A stretch of DNA of 25,950 nucleotides, taken from IMG/VR virus record IMGVR_UViG_3300007541_000182, positions 1-25,950 of that record, one strand, 5' to 3'. The notes below the pieces were generated by a model that was not told the origin of the DNA, did not search any database, and saw only the letters and a program-made list of their open reading frames with translations. The position numbers and the translations under genes were made by a program. This document shows positions 3,932 to 22,509 of the stretch, in pieces. The DNA is from a virus. Position 1 is the first letter of the stretch. Each line of letters opens with the position of its first letter.

Positions 3932-4528
3932 TTATTCTCCTAATGATCTTACGCGTTCTGATATTTTAATTAATCTCTCTGATATTTTATTTAATGCTCG
4001 TTCTACTTGAGGTCCATAACCATCCTTAGACATCCCGGATTCGGTCTTAAGACGAGATGCATGTTTTACCATTTCTTCAATTTCACTCATTTTTTTAGAA
4101 ACGTCTCGAATGGTATTTTTAACTTTCTTTTCTGGAGTTAATTTAGGATTATCTGTTACATATGAACGATAACCTTCAATAAGTTGTGCATATTTTTTAT
4201 CCATTACTTCTTGAACTTTTCGATATCCTAATGCCTCAATAGTATCATCATCAGCTTTTCCAAAAGCTTTCGGTGTCATGTATGCGCCAGCTCCTGCTGA
4301 TGTAGATGCTTCTTGTACATCATCTCCAGGTTCATACCATATGCCATCTCCATCATCATCTTGCCAACGTTTAGGTTTTCTATTTGAATCCAACGGACGG
4401 CCTTCTTCATCATGTGGTATAGGCACATCTTCATCATCTTGTTCAGCATCTGCATCATATGATGTTTCTGCTAATTCAGCTTCAAATTCTTCGAACTTTT
4501 TTTCTATTTCTTTTATAAATGATTTCAT
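3932..4528 (-). CDS. Unknown 198-residue acidic protein, probable prohead component
   Basis: Not recognised as a named family. Residues 1-40 form a very acidic helix-like segment (KFEEFEAELAETSYDADAEQ). Residues 54-70 (RWQDDDGDGIWYEPGDD) contain a DxDGDG loop of the calcium-binding type. An Ala/Gly/Ser linker follows (about 74-82), then a long charged helical C-terminal part (about 92-198). It overlaps the preceding gene by 4 nt (ATGG, stop within the start region) and precedes the protease by 1 nt. In T4 the small acidic core proteins gp67 and gp68 occupy this place between portal and protease, which makes a core role plausible, but I see no sequence proof. Confidence 0.75.
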   Translation of the reverse strand: MKSFIKEIEKKFEEFEAELAETSYDADAEQDDEDVPIPHDEEGRPLDSNRKPKRWQDDDGDGIWYEPGDDVQEASTSAGAGAYMTPKAFGKADDDTIEALGYRKVQEVMDKKYAQLIEGYRSYVTDNPKLTPEKKVKNTIRDVSKKMSEIEEMVKHASRLKTESGMSKDGYGPQVERALNKISERLIKISERVRSLGE

Positions 4529-5376
4529 CCATGTACCCTTGTGAGTTCGTCTACTAATTCAAAATATCTTAAAAGTGATAATATATGAGATTCTTTAATC
4601 ACTTTCATTGTTTCAACATTGCAAAGCATCTCTGAAAGTTTTTTAACTTTAATTTGAGTTACTTGATCTGTAATTTGTTTGGAATGTTCTGCCAACTGTT
4701 TTTTTATGGCAGGTATTTCTTGCTTAATATATTCACGAAGCGAATCAGTATCATTAATATGAACAATGTATTTATTCAATAAACGTTTTTGTGATTCTGA
4801 CAGTTTTGAATATTTTTGATTGAATTTATCAACAAGAAGTTTATATGTTAATAATCGTTCTGATTCATCCTGATTTTTAAATGTTTCTAGAACCACATCT
4901 TTTTCCGTTTTCTTTGTTTCTGTCAATAAAACATGATCTAGAATTACATTCTTACATTCTGCTAACTGCTTTACATTAGCTGTATCTTGATATTCAAACA
5001 ACATGTATATAGAAGCTAACACTTTATAATTATTAATATGTCCTTTTGCAAGAGAATCAAATTTAAAATTTTCTGAAATTTCTTTTACTAGATTATACTT
5101 TTGTCTGCGGAGCAATGATTGATTTAATTGCGAATATGCTCTTTGTGATTCTTTAATAAAATCTAATGCTCTTGCTTCAGACTTGAATTGCTCTTTAACT
5201 ATGGAATTATATAATTGTAATTCTTTTGACAATTCTGTATTCTTACCAAAATATTTTTTAATAATATCAATAGCTATGGATTTATCAGAAGAAAGTGTTT
5301 CCGATGTAAGTTTGCGAACTAACATTTCAAAAAGAATACCTGCGTTTTTGTATTTTGAATGTTTTAATTTTTTCAT
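4525..5376 (-). CDS. Conserved phage protein of unknown function (283 aa)
   Basis: The N-terminus (KKLKHSKYKNAGILFEMLVR) is of a type I associate with uncharacterised proteins beside the portal gene in marine T4-like phages. The rest is Lys/Glu-rich and helical throughout, with no signal peptide, membrane segment or catalytic motif that I can name. The start at 5376 has no SD but follows an ATATTTAT element and an AT-rich 16-bp palindrome. It opens the sub-operon 283 aa - 198 aa - gp21 - 135 aa - 154 aa - bS21. Its position after the portal gene suggests head or neck assembly; that is inference. Confidence 0.8.
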   Translation of the reverse strand: MKKLKHSKYKNAGILFEMLVRKLTSETLSSDKSIAIDIIKKYFGKNTELSKELQLYNSIVKEQFKSEARALDFIKESQRAYSQLNQSLLRRQKYNLVKEISENFKFDSLAKGHINNYKVLASIYMLFEYQDTANVKQLAECKNVILDHVLLTETKKTEKDVVLETFKNQDESERLLTYKLLVDKFNQKYSKLSESQKRLLNKYIVHINDTDSLREYIKQEIPAIKKQLAEHSKQITDQVTQIKVKKLSEMLCNVETMKVIKESHILSLLRYFELVDELTRVHG

Positions 5377-16827: not shown

Positions 16828-16835
16828 ATAAATAT
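16828..16835 (-). promoter_or_regulatory. ATATTTAT element before the structural gene
   Basis: Coding-sense ATATTTAT with 20 nt before the ATG at 16807, overlapping the last base of the preceding stop. It lies in TATTTATAATAAATA (16820-16834), a 7+1+7 inverted repeat. Confidence 0.6.
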
Positions 16836-19390
16836 CATACATGATTAATCTGGCTGAATTTATTAATCTTATTAACTTCTAGCAAATTGTCTACCATATC
16901 ACGCATTGAATCAACGTGTGAAATAATAATAGAAAAATCAAATTTAGTTCTTAGATATTCGAACAGATTAACTACCGATGAAATGTGTTCTGCGTCTAAT
17001 GATCCCCATCCTTCATCGATTGCAATAAAATTAGGACGTGGTAATGCCGATACATTGATTAAACCAATTCGAATTGCCAGAGATGAAATAAATCGTTCCA
17101 TTCCACTCGTTAACTCCAATGGCCAAATATTATCTTCATCATACACAATATAACCATTAATGTTTTTTCCATCAGTTTGTAACACAATATTAAAATCTAC
17201 AATCTGATTGAGCACATTGTTAATTTCAGATTCAATTTTAGGTATAGCTTTTGCTACTAAGTCATATGGAACACCGTTTCTTTTTACCGATTGCAAATAA
17301 TATTCATATGCACGATATTCTGTTTCTATGCGTTTATATGTTTCTAATTGTGAAAGAGCGTTAGCTTTTTTAGTTTTAGCAACTTCAATTTCACCATGTT
17401 TCGTTTTTATGTTTTCTGATAAAACTTTTAATGCAAAATCAATTTCAGAGATCTGTTTTTTAATTTCCTGTATCTCAGTTTCGATTACAGCATTCTTTTC
17501 AATTGCAGATTTATTTTTAAAAAAGTGTTCTTGTCGTTCTTGGTTAGTTTCTAGTTCAGATTCTTTGGTTTGTAAATCACTTTCTATAACTTGTAATGCC
17601 AATTCATCTCGTTCTAATTTAGGAACATCGAACGTGTTAATTTTAGCGTGTAAGTCATTGTATTCGGTTAATTGCGTTTCATAGTGTTGATGCAATTCAA
17701 TTTTATTTTGTAAGGCTGTTTGTTTGATTTTTAACTGTTCTAATACTGCCTGATCTTCTTTAATCGTATTCTTGGCTTTTGTCGCATTTTGCACGAATAC
17801 GTTAGATGTGCAGTATTGACAATCTGGATCATATTCGTGATCGGATAAATGATTGATTTGTTTCTGCTTGCCATCAATTATTCCTTGTGTTGTTTGTATT
17901 TCAGTGTTTAATTTTAGTGCTTGTTGTTTTAACTCTTGAAGTGTATCGAATTTTTCTTGAATCGTTTTTATATCATATGATTTCAATTTCTTTTTGTTAT
18001 CAGATATAGTTTTTGAAAATGTTTCAATAAACGTTTCTTTTTCTTCTGCATCCGTTTGGAGTTGTTCAATAGCTTCAACTAATTGCGTTTCTTCCTGTGT
18101 TAAAGATTCTATAGAAGGACCGCTATATGTCGTTGCATGTTTTGATTCAATTAATTCCAATATTTTATCTTGGAGTTGTGATCTAGATGCATTTTGAATT
18201 GACTCCGAAGCTTCGCATTCAATGATATAATCTTTGTTTGCATCAATAATTGTGTCAGCTGAAGTTATAATTTCTGCAAAATCTGTCTTTTTATATTCTT
18301 TTAATTTACCGGAAGTTTCTTTGATATCTTCAGCAGCTAATTGATAAAGTTGTTCGAACACAGTAATATCTAAAAACTGCGAAAGCAAGTCTTTTCGTTC
18401 TCGTTGCGATTTATTGATAAAGTTATTGCTGTCATTTTGCAATGAAAATGCTGTTAATATAAAGTCATCATATGTACCTAGATACTTTCTGATGTTCTTG
18501 TTAGTTTCACTACGCTCTTCTCCGTTTAAATTTTCTGAATCAGAATAAAAATTAACATTAACTTTCACGTGTCCAGATTTCTGTGTTATTCCTTCTCTTT
18601 CAATGGTATATATTGTATCATTGATTTGAAATTTAAATATTCCTTTAAAGGTTGAACATTTATTATTTAACACTTCTTTTGCTTTTCCGGTTTTACTACA
18701 TTTGTCAAATATAACATATGTTATTGCATCTAATAGTGATGACTTACCAGAAGTGTTAGGTGCAAATAACCCGGTTACATCTGTTATTTTACTGAAATCA
18801 ATTTCATTGCCAGAACCATATGAAAACATGTTTTCAAACTCAAATGATATCGGAGTCCATGTGACGTGACGAACTTGATCGAGTATAGGTAATTTAGAAT
18901 TTATTGTGCGATTGATATGTCGAATTGCATCTAATTCTTCTGCAGTAGCTTGCGGATAATTATATTCAACAAAATCAGTAATTAAGTTGTTTTGATATTC
19001 AACATCTCGAACATTTCCAATATTAATATTTGCAGTAGTACCAGTTGCCGCATTAGTGTTAATTCTTTGAATAGAAATGTCTTGAACTGAATATTTAGAT
19101 CGCAAAGCAGTTATAAACTTTTTCATGTCTGCTGCATCTGTATTATCAAACTTGACTCGTATTCTGGGTTTATTAGGCATACGAGTAGGATGTTTTATGA
19201 TTTGTGCTCCTTGAACTTCGAAGGTAACATAACCGTAATCATTTTCAATTTGAACGAAATCTGCGGTGCAAGAATCTACATCCCATACCAATATTCCGTG
19301 ATCTAATGCTTCTCCATGATTCTGTTGGATTGTGCTACCGACATATCTTATTTCAGGCTTTTTTCTATATAACTTTATTTTTTTACTCAT
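16835..19390 (-). CDS. gp46: gp47 C-terminal segment fused to gp46 (SbcC/Rad50-like ATPase)
   Basis: 851 residues. Residues about 10-65 (KPEIRYVGSTIQQNHGEALD, HGILVWDVDS) are the distal part of an SbcD/Mre11 nuclease, the segment that normally follows GDIHK in gp47. From about 176 on it is gp46/Rad50: Walker A APNTSGKSS (210-218), Q-loop region FSLQND, a long coiled coil, zinc hook CQYC (524-527), signature LTSGMERF and Walker B FIAIDEGWGSLD (about 788-799; Asp792, Glu793). The 46/47 complex resects DNA ends for recombination-dependent replication. No stop separates the two portions, so this is an Mre11-tail-Rad50 fusion. The ATG overlaps the endonuclease stop (ATGA), and residues 1-9 (MSKKIKLYR) look like a newly acquired start segment. 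Confidence 0.92.
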   Translation of the reverse strand: MSKKIKLYRKKPEIRYVGSTIQQNHGEALDHGILVWDVDSCTADFVQIENDYGYVTFEVQGAQIIKHPTRMPNKPRIRVKFDNTDAADMKKFITALRSKYSVQDISIQRINTNAATGTTANINIGNVRDVEYQNNLITDFVEYNYPQATAEELDAIRHINRTINSKLPILDQVRHVTWTPISFEFENMFSYGSGNEIDFSKITDVTGLFAPNTSGKSSLLDAITYVIFDKCSKTGKAKEVLNNKCSTFKGIFKFQINDTIYTIEREGITQKSGHVKVNVNFYSDSENLNGEERSETNKNIRKYLGTYDDFILTAFSLQNDSNNFINKSQRERKDLLSQFLDITVFEQLYQLAAEDIKETSGKLKEYKKTDFAEIITSADTIIDANKDYIIECEASESIQNASRSQLQDKILELIESKHATTYSGPSIESLTQEETQLVEAIEQLQTDAEEKETFIETFSKTISDNKKKLKSYDIKTIQEKFDTLQELKQQALKLNTEIQTTQGIIDGKQKQINHLSDHEYDPDCQYCTSNVFVQNATKAKNTIKEDQAVLEQLKIKQTALQNKIELHQHYETQLTEYNDLHAKINTFDVPKLERDELALQVIESDLQTKESELETNQERQEHFFKNKSAIEKNAVIETEIQEIKKQISEIDFALKVLSENIKTKHGEIEVAKTKKANALSQLETYKRIETEYRAYEYYLQSVKRNGVPYDLVAKAIPKIESEINNVLNQIVDFNIVLQTDGKNINGYIVYDEDNIWPLELTSGMERFISSLAIRIGLINVSALPRPNFIAIDEGWGSLDAEHISSVVNLFEYLRTKFDFSIIISHVDSMRDMVDNLLEVNKINKFSQINHV

Positions 19391-20136
19391 AACTTACTAA
19401 AATTAAAATCTTTTATTTCATCTTCCCAAATACGTATCAATGTCCAGTCAGATGATTCTACTAACATATTTTTGTATTTGTCATTTTCTCTTGTTCGATG
19501 TTGTGCTTCATTTAACTCATTATCAGAAATACCTTTACCATGCCAATAAACACCATCGACTTCTAACAATATTTTTTTAGATGGTATTGCAAAATCAAAA
19601 TAACGTCCTCTAAACTCATATTGTGTTTCAAATATTATGTTATTATTTGTTAAAATATCAAACACTTCCTTTTCTGGTTTTGTTTGTTTAGTATCGTGTA
19701 ATATTTTATTCCGATAGTCGTGAGATGACATACCATATCTTTCTAACATTGTAATATCACATTGTCTTGTACCATATTTTCCTGATAAATTATGTCCGCC
19801 GTTAGCTTCAATAGTTTTATTACGTTTTTCAATTGCTTCAAGTGACCAACCAATTGGATAATCGCTATTTTCATCACGAGCTTTTTGTAAACCTTCTAAT
19901 CGCCTTTTACGAATTTCATCATTCTGCCATGTCTCAGTAGTTCGTTCCGCCCTCATTTTACGTTCTTCTGCCGATGCTTTTCGTCCAACATTATGATGTG
20001 GTTCTTTTTCATATTTTTCTTTTTTACGTCTTGAATCAGCTTTTGCATAACATGATCTATTACAGAACTTTTGTTTTGAGTTGAATGTTGAATATTCTTT
20101 TTTACATTCCTCACATATTTTTGTTTGTTTTGCCAT
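19387..20136 (-). CDS. Vsr-like (EDxHD-type) homing endonuclease inside gene 47
   Basis: 249 residues. The N-terminal zinc finger has Cys8, Cys11, Cys25 and Cys29 (ICEECKKEYS, FCNRSCY). The middle is charged, with NUMOD-like helices (about 50-115). The C-terminal nuclease carries EKEVFDIL (155-162), RYFDFAIP (178-185, Asp181), LEVDGVYWHG (191-200) and RIWEDEI (235-241), the arrangement of Vsr-fold endonucleases such as I-Bth0305I. Such enzymes cut a target DNA site and spread their own gene by recombination. It sits exactly between the two halves of gp47, overlapping the downstream half by ATGA. It has no SD; an ATATTTAT element and a hairpin precede it, which suggests its own timed expression. 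Confidence 0.88.
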   Translation of the reverse strand: MAKQTKICEECKKEYSTFNSKQKFCNRSCYAKADSRRKKEKYEKEPHHNVGRKASAEERKMRAERTTETWQNDEIRKRRLEGLQKARDENSDYPIGWSLEAIEKRNKTIEANGGHNLSGKYGTRQCDITMLERYGMSSHDYRNKILHDTKQTKPEKEVFDILTNNNIIFETQYEFRGRYFDFAIPSKKILLEVDGVYWHGKGISDNELNEAQHRTRENDKYKNMLVESSDWTLIRIWEDEIKDFNFSKL

Positions 20137-20144
20137 ATTGATTA

Positions 20145-20186
20145 TGTTGTATTAGTCTCTTTCTAATAAATATGTCTAATACAACA
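20145..20186. repeat. Perfect 11-bp inverted repeat before the homing endonuclease
   Basis: Arms TGTTGTATTAG (20145-20155) and CTAATACAACA (20176-20186) are exactly complementary around a 20-nt loop. The element fills most of the 56-nt gap between the gp47 fragment and the endonuclease ATG. On the coding strand no U-run follows, so it is not a standard terminator. The loop holds the ATATTTAT motif, so a transcript starting there would lack the 5' arm while a read-through transcript would fold. Confidence 0.8.
20166..20173 (-). promoter_or_regulatory. ATATTTAT element in the hairpin loop, before the endonuclease
   Basis: Coding-sense ATATTTAT with 29 nt before the endonuclease ATG at 20136. 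It is the same octamer as upstream of six other genes and lies wholly inside the loop of the 20145-20186 inverted repeat. Confidence 0.55.
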
Positions 20187-20192
20187 AAAACA

Positions 20193-20888
20193 TTATTTTA
20201 TTTGCCAACCCTTTTGTAAATATTCATCAACATCGCATTCGTCAACTTCAATTTCTTCATATTCATATTTCTGTAATATTTGATTGGGTTTATGAATATC
20301 ACCTAACAGAGTCATGTCATGTCCTACAAACATATCTGTTGTTACATGTTCGTTGGATATTTCATAACCAATGTCTGTTTTAGCTGAATGCACAGCACCA
20401 TGGTGTAATGCAATTTTACGATATTCTGCATCGAAGTCTTTGGCTTTTACATAATGCTTTGGTTCTACATCGACTGCCATATGATTCCAAGTGATACCCG
20501 CAAAATCAAATAATCCATTGTCTTTAACAAAAAATACATTTGGATTCTTAATCATGTCCAACACCGGAGATAATGCATCTTCTCGATAAGTGTTATTCAG
20601 ATTCATGTCGTGATTTCCTAGAATAACAATCGTAGGAATATCAAAGCCATTGAAAAAATTAGTTAGCATTCGAATAAGCTCCGGAGACATTTCTAGTTTG
20701 CTGTGAACAATATCGCCAGTAACTACAGCAATACTATTAGCAGTGCTTGTTCGTGCAATGTAATTGAACATGTTTTCAAACACAGAACGATATTCCTGGT
20801 GTCGCTTCAATGTTCGTATGTGTACATCAGATATATGATATATTTTATCAGCTCGTTCTATACCACAATCTATATGTTTTATTTCCAT
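20193..20888 (-). CDS. gp47: gp47 N-terminal nuclease segment (SbcD/Mre11-like), split gene
   Basis: 231 residues. All metallophosphoesterase motifs are present: DVH (21-23), TGDIVHS (57-63), GNHD (91-94), LHHG (161-164) and GDIHK (196-200). The protein then leaves the family: after PNQILQKYE the tail YEEIEVDECDVDEYLQKGWQ looks like the short linker seen around homing-endonuclease genes, and a stop follows. The missing distal part of gp47 is at the start of the downstream gp46 ORF, across the inserted endonuclease. The active site is thus intact but the C-terminal region is supplied in trans. The start at 20888 has AGGA and overlaps the primase end by 10 nt. The partner is gp46, for DNA-end processing. 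Confidence 0.92.
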   Translation of the reverse strand: MEIKHIDCGIERADKIYHISDVHIRTLKRHQEYRSVFENMFNYIARTSTANSIAVVTGDIVHSKLEMSPELIRMLTNFFNGFDIPTIVILGNHDMNLNNTYREDALSPVLDMIKNPNVFFVKDNGLFDFAGITWNHMAVDVEPKHYVKAKDFDAEYRKIALHHGAVHSAKTDIGYEISNEHVTTDMFVGHDMTLLGDIHKPNQILQKYEYEEIEVDECDVDEYLQKGWQIK

Positions 20889-21823
20889 AATAATCCTAAT
20901 TTATATTCTGTTAGTTTGGCAAATGTCATTGGTTCCGTTTCATCTATTAATTCTGTAATCTTTTCAAAACCTAAATCAGACGGATCTTTGTCTTGCATTT
21001 CTACTAAATACACATTTAATCCTTCTGCCATGAATTTTTCACAGATCGATAATGCATTTCTAATTGCATCATGATCTAGACATATGTATATGTTTTTTAC
21101 GTGTTCTTCTATAATCTTTTTTTGTAGTGCGGGTTGTATTATTTTTCCAAATAATGGTATTGCATTTCTTTTAATAGCCATTGCATCAAATGCGCCTTCG
21201 CATAAAACAATTGGTTCATTCCAATTAATCATCATTCCGAATCCGATTATATCTTTTGATACTTTTGGATTTTTATGTTTATTTTTGTCTGCAGAATAAT
21301 AAGCTCGACTTACAAAATAATTTAATTGTCCTTCGCAGTCATAACTAGGAATAATTATTTTTCCAGAATATGGACCATCTTCACAATAACCGATCCTGTA
21401 ACGGATTATATCAAAAACTGTGATACCTCTATTTTTTAGATAGTATATTGCGTTGCGATAATCCGGAGTATTTTTTGTGATCCATAATGGTTTATATGCA
21501 TCTGGCAAATGTAGATCTTCTTGAACTTTAGCAGTTGGTTCGAAATCTCGATACTTACCAGCATCGATTATTCGATTCAGTCTGTCAAATGTTTCTTTGG
21601 GAAGATTTAATTGTTTGAATAATGTTTGTATGCTTTTACCTTTTCGGTCTGATATCCAACAATGCCAAGTATAATTACCTTGTTCATCTGGAATACTACG
21701 TACTTCTAATTTAGGTTTATAATGTGATACAAACGGAGAAAAGAATGCAATGTTACCACCTGATGTAGGTTTTCCTTTTCCTAGAACAGATTCTAATAAC
21801 TGTATTAATCTTAGATTCTCCAT
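20879..21823 (-). CDS. DNA primase, gp61-like (TOPRIM), degenerate zinc ribbon
   Basis: 314 residues. The TOPRIM catalytic core has IVLCEGAFDAMA (205-216; Glu209, Asp213), ICLDHD (247-252) and DPSD (280-283). The N-terminal part FFSPFVSHYKPKLEV ... WHCWISDRKGKS aligns in layout with the zinc ribbon of T4-like primases (CPFC ... CWxC), but here the ligands read S29/V32 and C55/S58, so only one Cys remains. The enzyme makes RNA primers for lagging-strand synthesis with the gp41 helicase, which is not in this window. It is followed by gp47 with a 10-nt overlap, so both are co-translated. The start at 21823 has no SD and a very AT-rich leader. Confidence 0.88.
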   Translation of the reverse strand: MENLRLIQLLESVLGKGKPTSGGNIAFFSPFVSHYKPKLEVRSIPDEQGNYTWHCWISDRKGKSIQTLFKQLNLPKETFDRLNRIIDAGKYRDFEPTAKVQEDLHLPDAYKPLWITKNTPDYRNAIYYLKNRGITVFDIIRYRIGYCEDGPYSGKIIIPSYDCEGQLNYFVSRAYYSADKNKHKNPKVSKDIIGFGMMINWNEPIVLCEGAFDAMAIKRNAIPLFGKIIQPALQKKIIEEHVKNIYICLDHDAIRNALSICEKFMAEGLNVYLVEMQDKDPSDLGFEKITELIDETEPMTFAKLTEYKLGLLWK

Positions 21824-22026: not shown

Positions 22027-22509
22027 TTATTCAAAGAATTTTTTAGGATTGTTAGGTTCTTGACCGTTTTTCACGCATTCAGATAACCATTCTTCAGGTA
22101 TTTGTTTTTTAGCTACATGTTTTATACCTAGCTTCAGAGCATATGCTTCATACGTAGTTTTACTTGTTTTTGATATTTTTTGATTTGGATTCTGGAAAAC
22201 TATTCTTAAATCTATATCAGGGTTTGACTGTAAAATATGTTTCATTTTTTTGCGATCCGTTGCTGTCCACCGGCCTTTAGTTTCAATATACATTAATTCA
22301 CCGGTTTTCTTGGTAAACACAAAGTCTGGTGTATATTTAGATTTCTGTTCTGGTACAGTATATTGTAATGTTTCAGTTTCATAATTAACCGGATAATTTG
22401 CTTCAGCTATTTGTTCAGAAACTTTCAATTCTAAGCCTGATCGATATCCGTATTTATATGCAGCTTGTCGTTGCATGCTACCAGCAGTATGCCAATGATT
22501 TTTTCTCAT
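22027..22509 (-). CDS. T7-type endonuclease I (Holliday-junction resolvase)
   Basis: 160 residues, matching T7 gp3 (149 aa) in length and order of motifs. RSGLELKVSEQ (23-33, Glu27), YTPDFVF (59-65, Asp62) and YIETKGRW (74-81; Glu76, Lys78) give the PD-(D/E)xK active site. DRKKM, LRIVFQNPN and a C-terminal LGIKHVAKKQIPEEWL also follow T7 gp3 (CEKHGIKFADKLIPAEWI). It resolves branched DNA, such as recombination and replication junctions before packaging. T4 itself uses the unrelated endonuclease VII (gp49), so this looks like a replacement from another phage lineage. No SD is present; it lies 23 nt after the 733-residue gene. Confidence 0.92.
   Translation of the reverse strand: MRKNHWHTAGSMQRQAAYKYGYRSGLELKVSEQIAEANYPVNYETETLQYTVPEQKSKYTPDFVFTKKTGELMYIETKGRWTATDRKKMKHILQSNPDIDLRIVFQNPNQKISKTSKTTYEAYALKLGIKHVAKKQIPEEWLSECVKNGQEPNNPKKFFE

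Follow-up and report, generated by a model that had tools for sequence, protein, structure and literature searches.

An SbcD-like phage gene 47 split by a Vsr-like homing endonuclease gene, with a conserved tail at the break

The window analysed here covers 25,950 bases of the genome of an uncultured virus, as an incomplete record; the tally of gene 47 copies extends over this fragment, and a second intact copy may lie elsewhere in the genome. On its minus strand, at 16835-20888, lies a gene-47/SbcD-like nuclease gene in two pieces, separated by an 802-nt gap that contains the gene of a 249-aa Vsr-like (I-Bth0305I-like) homing endonuclease. The N-piece (20193..20888, minus strand, 231 aa) is a calcineurin-like phosphoesterase of the SbcD type (Pfam Metallophos, 5e-11; PHROG SbcD-like) in which all five phosphoesterase motifs (I-V), up to GDIH, are present; DxH, GD, GNHD, H and GDIH are invariant across the split relatives. 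Its gp47 sequence runs to QKYE at 20262, in agreement with the end near 20260 given in the initial annotation, and is followed by a 22-aa C-terminal tail, YEEIEVDECDVDEYLQKGWQIK (20196..20261, minus strand), which was added by the insertion, is kept in all split relatives and is missing in intact ones. The initial annotation had noticed this addition and put it at 20 residues; the tail stands, its size is 22 residues, and it is a conserved module rather than an incidental extension.

The downstream piece (16835..19390, minus strand, 851 aa) carries the last strand of gp47 and its capping domain, fused to the gp46/SbcC ATPase (matches to AAA_23 and to the SbcC-like phrog_77), and the closest intact fusions among the matches listed have a C part that is 88-98% identical to it. 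It opens with a new N-terminal strand, MSKKIKLYR (19364..19390, minus strand), conserved in split relatives as M.KK(I/V)K(I/L).R, and gp47 resumes from KKPEIRYVGS, exactly the new ATG and nine residues with a return at about residue 10 that had been read from the letters. The same reading had labelled the piece gp47b-46, thereby recognising half of the fusion and missing that it descends from an ancestral gp47-gp46 fusion. Between the two pieces, the endonuclease ORF (19387..20136, minus strand) has the 249 residues first assigned to it, and its stop overlaps the downstream start in an ATGA (19387..19390, minus strand; read in ...AAGTTATGAGT...), so that translational coupling of the endonuclease and the downstream piece is possible. 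Within the 56-nt gap 5′ of the endonuclease start, an 11-bp inverted repeat, TGTTGTATTAG/CTAATACAACA, with a 20-nt loop (20145..20186, minus strand; -11 kcal/mol) is reminiscent of the hairpins that limit endonuclease expression in T4. Hairpins are also found at this place in other endonuclease-bearing alleles (a 17-bp version in locus L089 and other stems in L155, L175 and L188), with differing sequences and TATTTAT- or TACTTAT-like loops. A candidate late-promoter motif in the hairpin loop, TATTTATA, occurs 9 times in the window against 5.2 expected, which is not clearly above chance.

The same arrangement is present in two contigs from other samples, L001 (99.9% identity over 4230 nt) and L003 (99.95% over 4389 nt), and the split is therefore not an assembly chimera. 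Directly upstream of gene 47 lies a Toprim primase-like gene (20879-21823, minus strand), and further upstream a T7-type endonuclease I, a Holliday junction resolvase (22027-22509, minus strand; Pfam 1.7e-33).

The endonuclease has weak-to-fair matches to MTES_1575, DUF559 and Vsr. Aligned with seven homologues from the same site, its sequence profile retrieves PDB 3r3p (I-Bth0305I) at E 2.3e-5, and its AlphaFold2 model (pLDDT 78, about 90 in the catalytic part) matches the folds of 3r3p (2.2e-5) and E. coli Vsr (1cw0, 3.9e-4). Residues E155, D181, D194, H199 and D219 are invariant in the 8 homologues and are candidates for the catalytic set of an EDxHD-type nuclease, and four cysteines close to the N-terminus look like a zinc finger. 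The nuclease domain thus has its catalytic fold and sequence family (E 2e-5) in common with I-Bth0305I, an EDxHD enzyme of the Vsr fold. The two differ in that 3r3p is labelled a mobile intron protein, whereas the window gene is free-standing, splits its host gene and adds the apparent N-terminal Zn finger. Matches in named phages span at most 72% of the endonuclease among those listed.

Uninterrupted relatives, which the initial annotation had proposed to look for, are plentiful and define the insertion site. More than 100 related viral contigs encode the N and C parts in frame as a single gp47-gp46 (SbcD-SbcC) fusion protein, with N-to-C spacings that differ by -3, 3 or 27 nt and hold no stop; intact alleles mostly have a short plain turn at this place and no remnants of a tail. 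In near-family split alleles (the window, L001 and L003; the L083 group, from five samples; L089), the parts lie about 900 nt apart at the same place, and in L087 338 nt apart. The flanks of the window are found in empty form in L058 and L163, which read GDIHKPNQILQKYE-VVNGV-KKPEIRYVGSTIQQNHGEAL in one frame, and the insert therefore replaces about five codons, apparently at the hairpin turn that follows motif V (GDIH) and precedes the YxGS strand. The initial annotation's central claim, of a gene 47 fractured by a Vsr-like homing endonuclease, is borne out by the ORFs, the uninterrupted relatives and the 3r3p match.

Two contigs of one metagenome, L120 and L002, which probably belong to one genome given their shared sample and identity, are 93-100% identical to the window outside the site (mostly 95-100%, over segments of 30-60 nt), and L002 lacks the insert. 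The similarity drops to 55-85% identity just inside a tract that starts at about 20455 (the drop against L120) and ends at about 19330 (the recovery against L002). Judged by these alignments, the stretch 19330..20455 (minus strand, bounds approximate) is a co-conversion tract, the mark of homing, and takes in flanks of about 190 bp (left) and 30 bp (right). Synonymous divergence gives a second view of the movement. Between the window and L083, the host gene has a pS of 0.72 (N body) and 0.63 (C body), against 0.36 for the endonuclease and 0.29 for the tail (Fisher p of 3e-9 for endonuclease versus N body, 4e-6 for endonuclease versus C body and 0.009 for tail versus N body). By this measure, tail and endonuclease moved as a unit, at a later time than the divergence of the host gene into these lineages. 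The endonuclease has a dN/dS of about 0.19 and is thus maintained by purifying selection. Insertion, empty sites and lateral movement are accordingly established at the level of sequence comparison.

The split is not confined to the near family. Among the matches listed, about 28 phage lineages are split in this way and end their N-piece in a tail of this kind (E[VI]DExxLxxYLxxGW), counted from searches that took the best 80 loci per collection, so that the frequencies of split forms are biased. Searched as a DNA pattern, E[VI]D[DE]xxxxx.YLxxGW matched 29 stretches in IMG/VR, 28 of which end a split gene-47 N-piece, which rejects the idea of a general tag carried on other genes; several of these N-pieces are just 34-56% identical to each other overall. 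Searches with active-site patterns, with no tail in the query, retrieved eight splits (L241, L250, L252, L266, L268, L277, L279 and L282), all with a ..Y...GW tail. At the start of the C-piece there is nearly always a short basic strand that reads M.KK(I/V)K(I/L).R or differs little from it. Against named phages the N-piece had four matching records, one of which (LR756508) has the same split, and a tail-like query had no match there. This record, LR756508.1 (L197), is an unannotated GenBank entry for a 484-kb uncultured megaphage with the same tailed gene-47 split.

A tree built on the nuclease domain, with the tail left off, comprises 28 split and 97 intact rows and has many weak and some long branches. 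Split and intact alleles are interspersed in it, with 16 changes of state, at least 10 of them forced by starred branches; gains and losses are counted together here and are not separable. As read from this tree and the alignments, the insertion spot has been hit many times and is a recurrent target in phages that are distant from one another. The tail itself has parallels elsewhere. A related motif, [DE]E[LVI]xxYLxxGWxxG[RS], is present in a further 73 viral ORFs, in most cases close to the C-terminus of a homing endonuclease-like protein, and 9 of the 10 motif-bearing ORFs that were scanned have GIY-YIG/SegE, NUMOD3/4 or HNH_3 domains. The V/I position of the tail, which the pattern leaves free, is hydrophobic in all 53 distinct copies of the motif. 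The tail is plausibly an endonuclease-derived module, the motif being short enough for convergence to be possible. Five phage homing endonuclease-like ORFs (L303, L308, L346, L354, L357) have tandem KK(I/V)KKEELxxYLxxGWxxG repeats.

The gap between the pieces is occupied in different ways. A Vsr-like endonuclease is found in the window, L083, L089, L155/L196, L187/L204, L178, L190 and probably L180, an endonuclease that by eye looks like HNH in L188/L201, and a TnsA-like endonuclease (PF08722) in L175/L202 and LR756508. Remnants of an endonuclease are left in L087 (its last 71 residues only), L179 and L181, and gaps without an endonuclease measure 2 nt in L173 and L176, 15 nt in L182 and 69 nt in L174. 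In seven loci (L241, L250, L266, L268, L277, L279, L282) the gap instead holds an ORF of about 312 aa, at about 4190-5130 of the locus, that is glycosyltransferase-like (weak DUF354 match) and goes with the tail variant EHRF(I/V)PE..(V/L)DEYKLxGW; L191 has a 103-aa ORF. The split form therefore outlives its endonuclease, as the tailed split is kept with a remnant, with no gap gene or with other ones; the conservation of the tail and its endonuclease-free persistence are read directly from these alleles. In the particular case of L205, sister to the split L181 in the tree, the sequence reads ...LQEYSCEELVVNESKLTTKKIKHIKPAIKYSGS, with the tail strand in frame with the downstream strand and both the YLxxGW helix and the endonuclease gone, and the allele appears to be re-fused. 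In L155/L196, L175/L202 and L187/L204, gp47-C is a stand-alone ORF of 74-76 aa, unlike the gp47-C/gp46 fusion of the window group, and gp46, in contigs that reach far enough, has an ORF of its own further downstream.

This variety bears on the order of events. The ancestral gene 47 might already have been split and tailed, with endonucleases entering the gap later and the intact alleles being re-fusions or recombinants; the depth and gene-47 specificity of the tail, the three types of endonuclease, glycosyltransferase-like ORF or nothing in the gap, and the resemblance of L205 to a re-fusion would all fit such a history. We nevertheless consider it unlikely, and at best suited to some distant lineages and not to the window, whose near-identical relative is intact and tail-free and whose tail came inside the co-conversion tract; most intact alleles, moreover, have the short plain turn with no trace of a tail. 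Homing into an intact fusion is the reading that we prefer for the window.

The fate of the two pieces was approached by structure prediction. In L174 the N-piece, the 69-nt gap and the C-piece share one frame apart from stops, which were read as glutamine (table 6) to give one chain, joined by an artificial 30-aa linker read through the stops. AlphaFold2 modelled this N-tail-linker-C chain with a pLDDT of 90 and a pTM of 0.87, in a fold that matches Mre11/SbcD (3tho, 7dog, 6s6v). The tail forms a strand (209-216) and a helix (217-225), the linker is disordered, and the new C strand spans 261-268. Deduced from strand boundaries, 203-206/270-273 and 209-216/261-268 fit one antiparallel ladder. 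Together with the re-fused L205 allele, the prediction suggests that the halves reassemble through pairing of the tail strand with the strand newly added at the N-terminus of the downstream piece, and we infer that the split pieces function in trans. That gene 47 is simply broken, its pieces non-functional and the phage relying on another nuclease or none, would be compatible with a genome record that is a fragment. It is nonetheless very improbable, given that the catalytic motifs are all retained across split lineages, that a comparison of these lineages shows strong purifying selection on the N and C bodies (dN/dS roughly 0.04-0.2), and that several lineages keep an endonuclease-free version of the same split.

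Finally, the parts could be joined after transcription or translation into one protein. Fractured genes with split inteins and a new family of homing endonuclease between the halves have reportedly been described, to go by the title of a 2009 report by Dassa (cited in PMC10448857 and PMC3653736), and the window has in common with them an endonuclease, of a related family, between gene halves. It differs from them in that no intein is present, the halves stay separate and a short non-intein tail is found instead. At the gathering threshold, Rfam gave no intron match at the locus, and at a lax E-value just chance-level matches to unrelated families; with the catalytic RNA core found at neither threshold, a group I/II intron was rejected. 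The 22-aa tail and 9-aa lead are far below the size that a split intein needs and have no intein motif, as the initial annotation had also remarked, which makes a split intein unlikely; an atypical short one was rejected as well, there being no downstream intein half, no motifs, and a stop and start 2 nt apart in L173 and L176. Joining by either route is thus the least credible of the readings considered.

The reading that best accounts for the locus, and that we hold to be highly probable, is that a Vsr-like endonuclease homed into an intact gp47-gp46 fusion, whose pieces are now separate and likely reassemble. A free-standing homing endonuclease gene would have entered the uninterrupted SbcD-SbcC fusion gene at the beta-hairpin turn that separates phosphoesterase motif V (GDIH) from the YxGS strand. 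When the cut was then repaired against a donor, one cassette would have been copied in, consisting of the 22-codon tail with its stop, the hairpin, the endonuclease gene and a start codon for the downstream half followed by a 9-codon lead. Along with it would have come donor flank, about 190 bp to the left and 30 bp to the right. Two proteins would result, a nuclease domain with a tail and a piece made up of the last strand, cap and ATPase. Most likely these would reassemble non-covalently, with the tail strand EEIEV pairing with KKIKLYR to rebuild an extended hairpin and the YLxxGW helix acting as a clamp. We infer reassembly, nuclease function and the origin of the tail in a homing endonuclease module. 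A bolder proposal, which we put forward tentatively, is that the element brings a repair kit along with it. The tail would derive from a strand-helix module of homing endonucleases (KKIKKEELDxYLxxGW) and would let the split Mre11-like enzyme reassemble by strand pairing, so that an important replication-repair gene could be broken with little harm. The module would be kept after the endonuclease is replaced by one of another class, decays or is lost, making the break stable and reversible by re-fusion.

The nearest known systems, by comparison with PMC2988022, are the two to which the initial annotation had likened the locus, Aeh1 nrdA (mobE) and T4 39/60. In Aeh1 nrdA-a/mobE/nrdA-b, an enzyme gene is interrupted at a critical region by a free-standing homing endonuclease, splicing plays no part, and the NrdA pieces assemble into a working enzyme (PMC2988022). 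The window likewise has a gene put in pieces by a free-standing homing endonuclease with no splicing; it differs in its Mre11/SbcD-like gene, in an endonuclease that is Vsr-like where that of Aeh1 is HNH, in the one conserved tail family of about 28 lineages (among the matches listed), and in the presence of empty, homed, decayed, lost and re-fused states. The Aeh1 interaction domains for assembly are said, in the title of a 2011 report by Crona (cited in PMC3267527), to derive from the mobile element. T4 topoisomerase 39/60 with mobA and the split gene 43 of Aeromonas phage yield separate working subunits (PMC2988022), and are like the window in that a replication gene is split by, or carries, a homing endonuclease; the gene here is a different one and comes with a co-conversion tract and near-identical empty alleles. 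A literature search for a split gp47/SbcD found no report, which upholds the suggestion that a fractured Mre11-like gene is a new instance. New here are the host gene, the non-intein Vsr-like endonuclease, the tail conserved in many phages and the presence of all stages of the cycle, the splitting itself being known from Aeh1 nrdA/mobE.

One site of one gene thus offers a natural series of empty, freshly homed, swapped, decayed, lost and re-fused alleles, on which the fate of endonuclease-split genes can be put directly to the test. Should the tail be an endonuclease-derived assembly tag, it would explain how important genes can be invaded without an intron or intein, and would provide a split Mre11-Rad50 system that assembles through a short peptide. 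For annotation, gene 47 will seem missing or broken in many uncultured phages. Two further loci, L182 and L192 (IMGVR_UViG_3300009408_000003 and 3300023478_000002), have an apparent cis intein at GNHD (..ISGN|CNLNNN), so that their gene 47 bears two kinds of intervening element, this apparent intein and the tailed split.
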